From the NCBI RefSeq assembly GCF_004342485.1, contig NZ_SMBU01000018.1:1-64000 (forward strand): 64,000 bases of DNA. The letters run 5' to 3'. How positions within the stretch are numbered: the first letter of the stretch is position 1; each line of letters opens with the position of its first letter. Made by a program: the position numbers and the translations under genes. A model generated the notes under the pieces. That model saw only the letters and a list, made by a program, of their open reading frames with translations, had not been told where the DNA came from and ran no database searches. Shown in pieces: positions 3,477-6,824 of the stretch. The stretch is from Roseateles saccharophilus (lineage in GTDB: Bacteria > Pseudomonadota > Gammaproteobacteria > Burkholderiales > Burkholderiaceae_C).

Positions 3477-3929
3477 ATGCAAGTGATCCTGCTCGAAAAA
3501 GTGGCCAACCTCGGCAACCTCGGCGACGTCGTCAAGGTCAAGGACGGTTATGCCCGCAACTTCCTGATCCCGACCAAGCAGGCGCGCCGCGCCACCGAGG
3601 CCGCGATCAAGGAATTCGAAGCCCGCCGCGCCGAGCTCGAAAAAGCCGCCGCCGAGAAGCTGGCCGCCGCCCAGAAGCTGGGCGAAGCCATCACCGGCAA
3701 GACCGTGCGCATCGCCCAGAAGGCCGGTGTGGACGGCCGCCTGTTCGGCTCCGTGACCAACGCCGACATCGCCGACGCGCTGACCAAGCTGGGTTCGCCC
3801 ATCGCCAAGGCCCAGGTGCGCCTGCCCAACGGTCCGCTGAAGACCGTCGGCGAGTTCCCCGTGAGCGTTGCCGCCCACACCGACGTGGTCGTCGAGATCA
3901 GCGTCCAGGTGGTTGCGGAAGCCGAGTAA
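3477..3929 (+). CDS. rplI: 50S ribosomal protein L9
   Basis: Extended two-domain 50S protein of 150 residues that spans from the L1 stalk base. N-terminal domain [19 protein letters not shown] and [15 protein letters not shown]; a long charged connecting helix around residues 40-75; C-terminal domain with [20 protein letters not shown] at 3477 lies 12 bases after rpsR, with AAGGAG ahead of it. Last gene of the operon before a hairpin terminator. Confidence 0.97.
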
Positions 3930-3979
3930 AGCTCGCTTCCCCTGATGTCGCGGCCCCGCTTGAGGCCGCAACATCGAAC

Positions 3980-4018
3980 GAAGGCCGAGGCCCGCAGGGG
4001 TTTCGGCCTTCTGTCTTT
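3980..4018 (+). terminator. Rho-independent terminator after rplI
   Basis: Arms GAAGGCCGA (3980-3988) and TCGGCCTTC (4003-4011) pair perfectly over nine bases and are followed by TGTCTTTC. It ends the rpsF-rplI transcript 50 bases after rplI. Confidence 0.7.
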
Positions 4019-4081
4019 CGGGGCCGTGTTTTCCCGCCCGGTCCACCGTTTGCTCCCAGTCCCTCCACAGCTTTATCCACA

Positions 4082-4345
4082 GGGCCTGTTAGCACTACGG
4101 GGATCGGATGCGTTGTCACTCAAAAGTCCGCGAGCAAGGCGCGAAGTCGAAGCTGGGGTCATCCCCGGCGAGACTTCGCAACGCCGCGCGCGGGCTTTTG
4201 AATGACAACCCTTCGGGAGAGGGCCTGCGCGGGCGCATGGCGTCGTTGCGCGTCTTGCCTGGGCATAGGCCCCAGGCGCGTCGCACGCCTAGCCCTGCAC
4301 CCGCGCAGGCCCTCTCGCACCGATTCCCATAGTGCTAACAGGCCC
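4082..4345. repeat. Structured inverted-repeat element (MITE-like) ending at the dnaB start
   Basis: Perfect 16-base terminal inverted repeats GGGCCTGTTAGCACTA (4082-4097) and TAGTGCTAACAGGCCC (4330-4345); pairing continues imperfectly for about 14 more bases inward. Inside are two further long hairpins. The first pairs 4112-4126 with 4195-4209 (14 of 15), with inner arms GCGAAGTC (4141-4148) / GACTTCGC (4172-4179) and a GGGG-TCAT-CCCC tip. The second pairs 4217-4233 with 4300-4316 (17 of 17). No protein of known type is encoded and no clear target-site duplication is visible. The size and layout suggest a non-autonomous mobile element or an element that works as folded DNA/RNA. The right end lies four bases from the dnaB ATG. 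Confidence 0.75.
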
Positions 4346-4349
4346 TGGC

Positions 4350-6824
4350 ATGTCCGCGATCTTTCCCGCCTCCTCCTCCGCAGCCCCGCAAGACGACGAG
4401 GTCGCGCGCCTGCGCGTGCCGCCGCATTCGGTCGAGGCCGAGCAGAGCGTGCTCGGCGGCCTGCTGATCGACAACTCCGCCTGGGATAAGGCCGCCGACC
4501 TGCTGACCGACAGCGACTTCTATCGCTTCGAGCACAAGCATGTCTACACCGCCGTCGGCAAGCTCATCAATGCCGGCAAGCCGGCCGACGTCGTCACCGT
4601 CTTTGACGAGCTGACCTCGGTCGGCCGCGCCGAGGAGTGCGGCGGCCTGGCCTATCTGAACGCGCTCGCGCAGAGCGTGCCGAGCGCCGCAAATTTGCGC
4701 CGTTATGCCGAGATCGTTCGCGAGCGCGCCATCCTGCGCAAGCTGGTGGCCACCAGCGACGAGATCGCCACCGCGGCGATGAACCCCCAGGGCCGCGCGG
4801 TCACGCAGATCCTCGACGAGGCCGAAGGCAAGATCTTCCGCATCGGCGAGGAAGGCTCGCGCAGCCGCCAGGGCTTCCAGAGCATGGACCAGCTCGTCGT
4901 CGCGCTGATCGACCGCGTCAACGAGCTGGCCGAGAGCGGTGCCCAGGACGTGACCGGCGTGCGTACCGGCTTCTACGACCTCGACAAGCAGACCGCCGGC
5001 CTGCAGCCCGGTGACCTGATCGTGCTGGCCGCGCGGCCCTCCATGGGCAAGGCCCAGCCCCTCGATGCCCGCGTGCGCACACGCACCGGCTGGGCGCGCA
5101 TGGGCGACTTGCAGGTGGGCGATGCGCTTGCGTCGGTGGACGGTCGGCCGTCAATCGTCACGGGCGTGTTCCCGCAGGGCGTAAAGCCGGTGTGGCGGGT
5201 GCGCTTTTCCGACGGACGCTCGACTGAGTGCTGCGACGAGCACCTGTGGAAGGTGCATTGCCGGCATTGGCCGGCGCCGCGTGTCCTCAGCACGGCGCAA
5301 TTGCGCGAGTTGCTGGATAAGCGGCGCTACCAGGATCGGGTTTGGATCGAGCGTGCCAGCGGCCACTTCGGGCACGACGACGAACTGCCCGTGGACCCCT
5401 GGCTCCTGGGGGCACTGCTCGGCGACGGCAACCTCACCGGCACGGGCTCGGTGCGATTCAGCACGGCGTCGCCGCAGGTGCTGGCCACCGTCGGCGAGCG
5501 CGCTGGCGCCGGCATGGTGGTGACGCCGGCTGGCGGCTATGACTATCGCATCGTCCGCGAGGATCGCGGTCATGTACCGGGCATTGCCGGTTCGCAGCCC
5601 AACCCCCTTCGCGTCGCTCTGCAGGCGTTGGGCCTCTCGGGCCTGTCGAGCGACCAGAAGTTCATTCCCGCCCTCTACCTCGAAGCCAGCCGCGAGCGCC
5701 GTCTGGAGATGCTGCGCGGCCTGCTGGACACCGATGGGTGGGTCGAGCGCTGGGGCAGTGTGCGGCTGTCGACCTCCAGCGAGCGGCTGGCGAAGGACGT
5801 CCAGGCGCTCGTGCGCTCGCTCGGTGGCTGGTGCTCGGTCACGGGCAAGCAACCGCACCACACGGTGGCTGGCGTGCGCATGGCTGGGCTGCCAGCCTTT
5901 GTTTGCCACATCTCGCACCCTCAGCCGCGAGAGCTTTTCCTGCTGGCCGACAAGCAAGCGCGTGCGCCGGAGCGCTGGCAGCGCGAGAAGCGCCTGACGA
6001 TTGCCGCCATCGAAGCCAGCCGCGAAGCGGCCTGCCAGTGCATCTCGGTCAGCCACCCGGAGCGGCTTTACGTCACCGACGAGGACGTGGTGACGCATAA
6101 CACCGCGTTCGCGGTCAACATCGCTGAGAACGTCGCCATCAACGAAGGCCTGCCCGTCGTCATCTACTCGATGGAAATGGGCGCCGCCCAGCTCGCGCTG
6201 CGCATGGTCGGCTCCATCGGCCGCATCGACCAGAGCCGCCTGCGCACCGGGCAGCTGAAGGACGACGAATGGGGGCGCCTCTCGGAGGCCGTCGACAAGC
6301 TCGGCAAGGCCAGCATCTTCATCGACGAGAGCCCTGGCCTGAGCCCTTCGGAAGTGCGCGCCCGTGCGCGCCGCCAGGCGCGCATCTGCGGCCAGCTCGG
6401 CCTCATCGTCATCGACTACCTGCAGCTGATGAGCGGCAACGGCGGTGGCAGCGAGGAGAACCGCGCGACCGTGCTGGGTGAGATCTCGCGGGGCCTGAAG
6501 GCGCTGGCCAAGGAGCTGAAGTGCCCCGTCATCGCGCTGTCGCAGCTCAACCGCTCGGTGGAGCAGCGGCCCGACAAGCGCCCGATGATGTCCGACTTGC
6601 GCGAGTCCGGCGCCATCGAGCAGGACGCCGACATCATCATGTTCATCTACCGTGACGAGTACTACACGAAGGACGACTGCAAGGAGCCCGGGGTCGCCGA
6701 GATCATCATTGCGAAACAGCGTAACGGCCCGGTGGGGACCGTGAAGCTCGCGTTCCAGCGCATGCACACGAAGTTCGAGAACCTCGCGCCCGGCTATGTG
6801 GGCGTGGAGCGGGACGAGTACTGA
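4350..6824 (+). CDS. dnaB: Replicative DNA helicase DnaB, intein-containing precursor
   Basis: Hexameric 5'-3' helicase at the replication fork. The precursor has 824 residues; removing a 350-residue intein leaves 474, the normal DnaB size. The N-terminal domain opens around RVPPHSVEAEQSVLGGLLID. The RecA-like domain starts at about residue 208. Walker A RPSMGK-T is interrupted between Lys234 and Thr585; after the intein come IYSMEMG, Walker B LIVIDYLQLM, QLNRSVEQRPDKRP and DLRESGAIEQDAD. The ATG at 4350 sits four bases beyond an inverted-repeat element and has no clear Shine-Dalgarno sequence; a GTG at 4332, inside the repeat arm, would add six residues. The intein must splice for the ATP site to form. 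Confidence 0.96.
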   Translation: MSAIFPASSSAAPQDDEVARLRVPPHSVEAEQSVLGGLLIDNSAWDKAADLLTDSDFYRFEHKHVYTAVGKLINAGKPADVVTVFDELTSVGRAEECGGLAYLNALAQSVPSAANLRRYAEIVRERAILRKLVATSDEIATAAMNPQGRAVTQILDEAEGKIFRIGEEGSRSRQGFQSMDQLVVALIDRVNELAESGAQDVTGVRTGFYDLDKQTAGLQPGDLIVLAARPSMGKAQPLDARVRTRTGWARMGDLQVGDALASVDGRPSIVTGVFPQGVKPVWRVRFSDGRSTECCDEHLWKVHCRHWPAPRVLSTAQLRELLDKRRYQDRVWIERASGHFGHDDELPVDPWLLGALLGDGNLTGTGSVRFSTASPQVLATVGERAGAGMVVTPAGGYDYRIVREDRGHVPGIAGSQPNPLRVALQALGLSGLSSDQKFIPALYLEASRERRLEMLRGLLDTDGWVERWGSVRLSTSSERLAKDVQALVRSLGGWCSVTGKQPHHTVAGVRMAGLPAFVCHISHPQPRELFLLADKQARAPERWQREKRLTIAAIEASREAACQCISVSHPERLYVTDEDVVTHNTAFAVNIAENVAINEGLPVVIYSMEMGAAQLALRMVGSIGRIDQSRLRTGQLKDDEWGRLSEAVDKLGKASIFIDESPGLSPSEVRARARRQARICGQLGLIVIDYLQLMSGNGGGSEENRATVLGEISRGLKALAKELKCPVIALSQLNRSVEQRPDKRPMMSDLRESGAIEQDADIIMFIYRDEYYTKDDCKEPGVAEIIIAKQRNGPVGTVKLAFQRMHTKFENLAPGYVGVERDEY
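5052..6101 (+). mobile_element. Class 3 intein with LAGLIDADG homing endonuclease in dnaB
   Basis: A 350-residue insertion from Ala (AQPLDARV...) to Asn (...VVTHN), followed by extein Thr. Block A lacks the usual Cys/Ser nucleophile. The class 3 WCT signature is complete: Trp at B:12 in GRSTECCDEHLWKV, Cys at F:4 in ACQCISVSHPERLYV, and Thr at G:5 in VVTHN. Between the splicing blocks lies a two-motif homing endonuclease with LLGALLGDG and LRGLLDTDGW, both acidic residues kept, plus a lysine motif KFIPALYL. Splicing and homing therefore both look intact. Class 3 inteins are known mostly from phage and bacterial DnaB-like helicases; the P-loop insertion site recurs in helicase inteins. Confidence 0.93.

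Follow-up and report, generated by a model that had tools for sequence, protein, structure and literature searches.

In the window analysed here, a 64,000-nt stretch of the Roseateles saccharophilus contig NZ_SMBU01000018.1, a 264-bp element occupies positions 4082–4345 of the plus strand, immediately upstream of dnaB. Reading of the sequence confirms the 264-base length and the terminal inverted repeats, perfect over 16 bases (4082–4097 and 4330–4345), that the first-pass annotation had reported. As that annotation had also stated, the element stops four bases short of the dnaB ATG at 4350 and carries an alternative GTG in its right arm; this GTG, at 4332, is in frame with the ATG. The features of the locus are as follows.

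3980–4011, plus strand: terminator-like hairpin after rplI
4073–4081, plus strand: TTATCCACA, directly abutting the element; the same nine letters precede dnaB in 16 of 18 empty sites
4080–4107, plus strand: left arm of the terminal stem P1 (outer CA from the host)
4082–4345, plus strand: type 1 MITE-like element with a three-way-junction fold (from sequence, fold, copies and empty sites)
4082–4097, plus strand: left terminal inverted repeat, perfect over 16 bp; an 827-bp IS has 15 of these 16 letters
4112–4209, plus strand: hairpin P2, the most conserved part of the element family
4217–4316, plus strand: hairpin P3; 2 of 24 type 1 copies carry its inner part in inverted orientation
4320–4347, plus strand: right arm of P1
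4330–4345, minus strand: right terminal inverted repeat, 16 bp, perfect
4332–4334, plus strand: GTG in the right arm, in frame with dnaB and an alternative start for it
4350–6824, plus strand: dnaB, replicative helicase gene with an intein-like insert

The complementarity of the ends extends to 18 bases (4080–4347), of which the outer left CA belongs to the host: it forms the last letters of TTATCCACA, and relatives with an empty dnaB site have the same CA. P1 comprises 28 pairs with 2 mismatches and joins P2 and P3, which are separated by the short linker CCCTTCGGG, in a three-way junction that appears both in the fold and in the consensus of 22 related copies (the limits of P2 and P3 were converted by hand from alignment A1). 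The DNA fold of 4070–4360 has an energy of −115.5 kcal/mol, compared with −62.7 ± 4.0 kcal/mol for 200 shuffles (z = −13.1, no shuffle as good), in accordance with the inner hairpins and near-complete self-folding noted in the first pass. A search of the element against Rfam 15 returned four weak matches, each under the gathering score of its family. With 264 bp the element is too short for a transposase, and the open reading frames listed across it are mechanical.

The block upstream of the element, including TTATCCACA, is conserved in relatives and stops where the element starts. A sigma-70 consensus scan of 3900–4400 gave no site, and the dnaB promoter probably lies beyond the element in this conserved block. 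With the promoter there, the element would be transcribed as a folded leader and, dnaB being presumably essential, such a leader must permit translation. The first-pass annotation had blamed the element for the missing ribosome binding site of dnaB, an attribution that fails because relatives without the element show no such site either. Specifically, the Shine-Dalgarno (SD) duplex energy at dnaB is +1.2 in relatives, corresponding to no SD, and the CAGGCCC of the element adds a weak one (−2.5); SD energies here and below derive from one to three empty alleles per gene, some padded with A. TTATCCACA at 4073–4081 is a DnaA-box sequence by consensus. It lies three or four bases from the dnaB ATG in 16 of 18 relatives, and DnaA may control dnaB.

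Within dnaB, positions 5055–6107 (limits set by eye) hold an intein-like insert with a LAGLIDADG_3 match. This match is strong only in the genome under study among the genus; of the five genomes among 20 that match, four do so at about 30% identity and in other long open reading frames. The dnaB gene of this genome thus carries two insertions, the intein and the 264-bp element, that are absent from the relatives.

The dnaB site is empty in 18 of 18 other readable genus genomes (a search with rplI matched 19 of 20 genus genomes, the present one included, and the other 18 were all readable at the dnaB start). The usual empty junction is TTATCCACA-GGCATG, and the junction in the present genome is TTATCCACA-(264 bp)-T-GGCATG, a net gain of 265 bp found in this genome only. 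In this genome, five places match at E 1e-10 or better: the dnaB copy, copies at metF and clpB, one that precedes a universal-stress-like gene, and a partial copy. When the ends served as the query, half a copy and a remnant of about 50 bp that runs from end to end were found in addition. At the same threshold, 13 of 20 genus genomes have matches. Of 100 genomes searched, 29 have a match, the present one included, many of the distant ones being short, and the element motif was found in 31 named places, 21 of which are Roseateles/Pelomonas records. An empty site was looked for at the universal-stress copy and none was found.

The search for the 16-base ends and the comparison of empty dnaB sites, both suggested in the first pass, thus yield copies elsewhere in this genome and in relatives, together with 18 of 18 empty dnaB sites. 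That dnaB inherited the element vertically as a host regulatory structure is hardly credible, given that the element is missing at dnaB from all 18 other genomes and has copies at other genes; the picture of one locus conserved by descent in all relatives, which the first-pass annotation had set against its own proposal, is contradicted within the genus. Its paired suggestion of a MITE-like passenger or a folded dnaB regulator divides accordingly: dispersed copies, 18 of 18 empty sites and IS ends favour the passenger, and the regulator is not supported, the insertion having been seen in this genome only.

The collection of copies also contains miniature end-to-end versions of about 50–72 bp that consist of nearly only the two arms (L016, G000:C8:85070; G005:C34:176894-176942; G009:C16:12263-12334). 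One locus (L119, G007:C14:643200-646500) holds a compound copy of 355 bp with two overlapping type 2 matches; one element may lie within another there. A pattern match in Pseudescherichia (L061) looked on inspection like an unrelated chance match.

Paired ends 827 bp apart were found in three genomes (G002, G003 and G012) in the search for ends. The ends of this 827-bp IS (GGGCCTGTTAACACTA) and those of the element (GGGCCTGTTAGCACTA) are alike in 15 of 16 letters. Two of the three ISs were read out, and both have two overlapping frames of an IS5-family transposase between the ends. The two halves match Pfam DUF4096 (1.5e-21) and DDE_Tnp_1 (1e-12), and against NCBIfam transpos_IS5_3 each half alone scores 133.1 bits (C half; cut-off 110) or 100.7 bits (N half). 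The IS presumably belongs to the IS427-like subgroup. In L214 and L216 the transposase frames meet at a run of 7–8 A, as for programmed frameshifting. The N-terminal IS half is present in 4 of 20 genus genomes, and the 827-bp IS was not detected in the present genome, a draft of 108 contigs. Because the element is mobile, as judged from empty sites and copies, and an IS5-family IS has nearly the same ends, the element is most likely a miniature inverted-repeat transposable element (MITE).

At fabH–fabD, the filled allele has TA on each side of the element; among the 14 empty alleles, the stop codon there is TAG in 3 and TGA in the rest. The simplest reading is therefore insertion into TAG, which would have duplicated TA and restored the stop codon. 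CTA/TAG flanks occur in many copies; exact junctions were unreadable for the other five copies searched for empty sites. No TA duplication is seen at dnaB, where the left flank is CA, the right flank is TG and the empty sites lack TA. Three TA-flanked copies (L081, G016:C36; L104, G016:C159; L116, G007:C12) overlap the TAG stop of one or both neighbours, as if insertion into a stop codon regenerates the stop codon.

The copies fall into two subfamilies, type 1 (like the dnaB copy) and type 2 (like the clpB copy), with common ends and a common P2 core. A start codon adjoins the right end in 20 of 25 type 1 copies and the left end in 3, compared with 9 and 4 of 51 type 2 copies (Fisher p = 4e-7 for type 1 versus type 2; the orientation bias of type 2 alone is not significant, p = 0.27). 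These counts include seven copies re-added by hand, count L093 and L100 on both sides, and rest on gene calls from codon scores, of which L085, L090 and L100 are considered weak. The 20 right-end type 1 copies correspond to 16 loci (trx 3, metF 2, flgG 2), against 3 left-end loci (two-sided p about 0.004). Gene names other than dnaB and the IS are a reading of the translations.

Comparison of filled and empty alleles places insertions near the start codons of metF, a pterin dehydratase gene, flgG and mfd, and further start-near insertions occur at deoA, trx, an EF-G-like gene, an ABC gene, panE, an arabinase-like gene, ldcA and clpB, often leaving zero to few bases before the start codon. At the metF, dehydratase, ABC, ldcA and arabinase-like copies, the stop codon of the upstream gene comes from the left arm. 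By duplex energy, clpB has an SD (−9.5) directly before the left arm and none before its ATG (+0.4), and flgG has an SD (−5.1) stranded left of the element and a weak one (−2.5) before its ATG, so that at both genes the element splits SD from AUG. The EF-G-like gene keeps its SD on the gene side, and most other start-adjacent loci show no clear SD split by the element. Survivorship can explain the persistence of insertions at such places; neither survivorship nor a neutral passenger explains the orientation of type 1 beside start codons.

The arms of P1 are paired within copies and vary between copies. For type 1, with 22 copies, 492 of the 528 pairs match within the copy (2000 shuffles gave a mean of 367 and a maximum of 406); for type 2, with 43 distinct arm pairs, the figure is 946 of 1032 (shuffle mean 726, maximum 787). 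The count is based on 22 copies of type 1 and 47 of type 2, the latter giving the 43 distinct pairs; 11 rows were left out, and rows that had no left anchor or lay too near a locus edge were passed over (L012 second hit, L097, L098, L099, L119, L255 and L263). On alignment A1, changes on both sides are seen in 23 of 29 P1 pairs, 5 of 31 pairs of P2 helices 2 and 3, and 2 of 22 pairs of the P3 base. Over the whole structure this gives 31 pairs, compared with 13.0 ± 2.0 in shuffles (0 of 500 as high), and as the copies are related the pair counts are not independent events. Hand counts on orthologous copies gave seven differing P1 pairs still matched and two not (three trx copies), one compensated and two uncompensated changes (metF), and two uncompensated changes (flgG). 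Copying of the arms from the target was rejected, the longest arm match to a copy's own 1.2-kb flanks being 6–12 nt, within the range of other copies' arms (22 copies), except in two of the 22 (L087 and L091), where an own-flank match of 12 exceeds all others.

Selection on P1 as RNA would be expected to leave G-U above A-C among mismatched pairs, and P1 shows no such excess. The raw G-U to A-C ratio is 46 to 57, or 31 to 31 without three ancestral-looking columns picked after the table was seen; an earlier count gave 20 to 9 for type 1 and 21 to 39 for type 2. Furthermore, type 2 copies, which lie mostly away from start codons, are also compensated, with 154 both-side cells versus 86 mismatched (150 versus 59 minus one column).

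The orthologous flgG copies of G018 and G013 carry P3 in opposite orientations; alignment A1 omits the two type 1 copies with inverted P3 (L095 and L098). In the inner hairpins, mismatched pairs counted by hand on A1 are G-U rather than A-C by 16 to 8 in P2 and by 30 to 14 in P3 (11 in one column), counts that the RNAalifold structure itself favours since RNAalifold accepts G-U pairs. RNA selection may act on P2 and P3, where G-U exceeds A-C. Between orthologous trx and metF copies, P2 is 94–97% identical, compared with 73–92% for P1 and 73–87% for downstream third codon positions. These two loci hint at constraint on P2, although the similarity may also come from gene conversion between copies. 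In the flgG pair, P2 (97%) is no slower than third codon positions (98%).

We propose that the dnaB element is a MITE of an IS5-family IS with ends TAGGGCCTGTTAACACTA, moved in trans, transcribed as a leader, shaped by template switching and carried as a passenger, and we put the probability of this reading as a whole at about 0.75. Comparison between genomes demonstrates the near-identical ends, the dispersed copies, the empty sites and the 265-bp gain at dnaB. An IS5-type transposase would have moved the element in trans. At dnaB it came to lie between the promoter region and the ATG, and the mRNA probably starts with a folded leader of about 264 nt. Template switching during replication would copy one P1 arm onto the other and occasionally flip a hairpin, and such copying could keep the ends complementary while their sequence drifts. 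A closed P1 would set both flanks side by side, and insertions between stop and start codon, or between SD and AUG, may be tolerated in consequence. The dnaB copy is most likely a recent, near-neutral passenger. Several observations count against this explanation: no TA duplication is seen at dnaB and the IS is not detected in the draft genome; a neutral passenger does not account for the single orientation that type 1 takes next to start codons; P2 is slow at trx and metF, and P2 and P3 lean to G-U, as expected of selected RNA; and P1 changes in the metF and flgG orthologues are mostly uncompensated.

The main rival to the passenger reading of the dnaB copy holds that selection maintains type 1 as a mobile leader RNA. 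An IS5-type transposase would spread this leader, P1 would splint the AUG to the SD or stop, P2 would act as an RNA motif that tunes translation, and the dnaB copy would be young. Such a leader would account for the excess of right-end start adjacency in type 1 over type 2, the SDs left on the 5′ side of the element at clpB and flgG, the slow P2 at trx and metF and the G-U lean of P2 and P3. It also has a precedent in phage T4 genes 38 and 25, where, according to PMC3014915, a hairpin in the mRNA brings the SD close to the AUG. As folded inserts between SD and AUG, the clpB and flgG copies resemble the case described there; unlike it, the insert is mobile and measures about 265 nt instead of the 22–27 nt spacing, and its effect on translation is putative. 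We consider this explanation unlikely, as P1 has no G-U excess, the G-U counts are favoured by the RNAalifold structure, no Rfam family matches at its gathering threshold, the dnaB copy occurs in one genome only, most other start-adjacent loci show no clear SD split and P2 is not slower in the flgG pair. A variant in which type 1 is a self-splinting leader that folds aside via P1, with P1 kept perfect by template switching and P2 regulating the gene behind, seems to us similarly improbable.

A different alternative concerns P1 alone, whose pairing would be maintained by selection for the paired form, as RNA or DNA, and not by template switching. The changes on both sides in 23 of 29 P1 pairs and the adjacency of type 1 to start codons agree with such selection, but we regard it as doubtful: P1 has no G-U preference, compensation is also seen in copies that lie apart from start codons (most type 2 copies), and the in-situ inversion of P3 is a DNA-level event. 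P1 covariation and P3 inversion, taken from the comparison of copies, instead resemble the footprint of template switching. In PMC8604942, PMC8794818 and PMC1803023, arm homogenisation and spacer inversion are the reported footprint of polymerase template switching between inverted repeats, and the element family has both, together with multi-base compensatory change; unlike those cases, it is a dispersed bacterial family in which the process would be deduced from comparison of copies.

MITEs are described in the review PMC10969869 as typically short, AT-rich and intergenic, with no transposase gene, terminal repeats shared with an IS and stably folding transcripts. Like IS5-family MITEs, the dnaB element family is short, lacks a transposase gene, shares IS ends, is dispersed between genes and has foldable transcripts. 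Unlike them, it is G+C-rich, its P1 arms differ from copy to copy yet remain complementary, and type 1 sits beside start codons in one orientation. In the open-access PMC literature, we found no paper on miniature inverted-repeat transposable elements together with Roseateles.

If the template-switch reading of the MITE family is true, the family is a natural multi-copy bacterial test of hairpin pairing kept without RNA selection, and compensatory change, the usual proof of a functional RNA, would here be produced by DNA replication. In addition, the copies at start junctions indicate that SD and AUG can stay separated by a structured insert of 265 bp, and that such an insert can also persist directly before a gene as important as dnaB.
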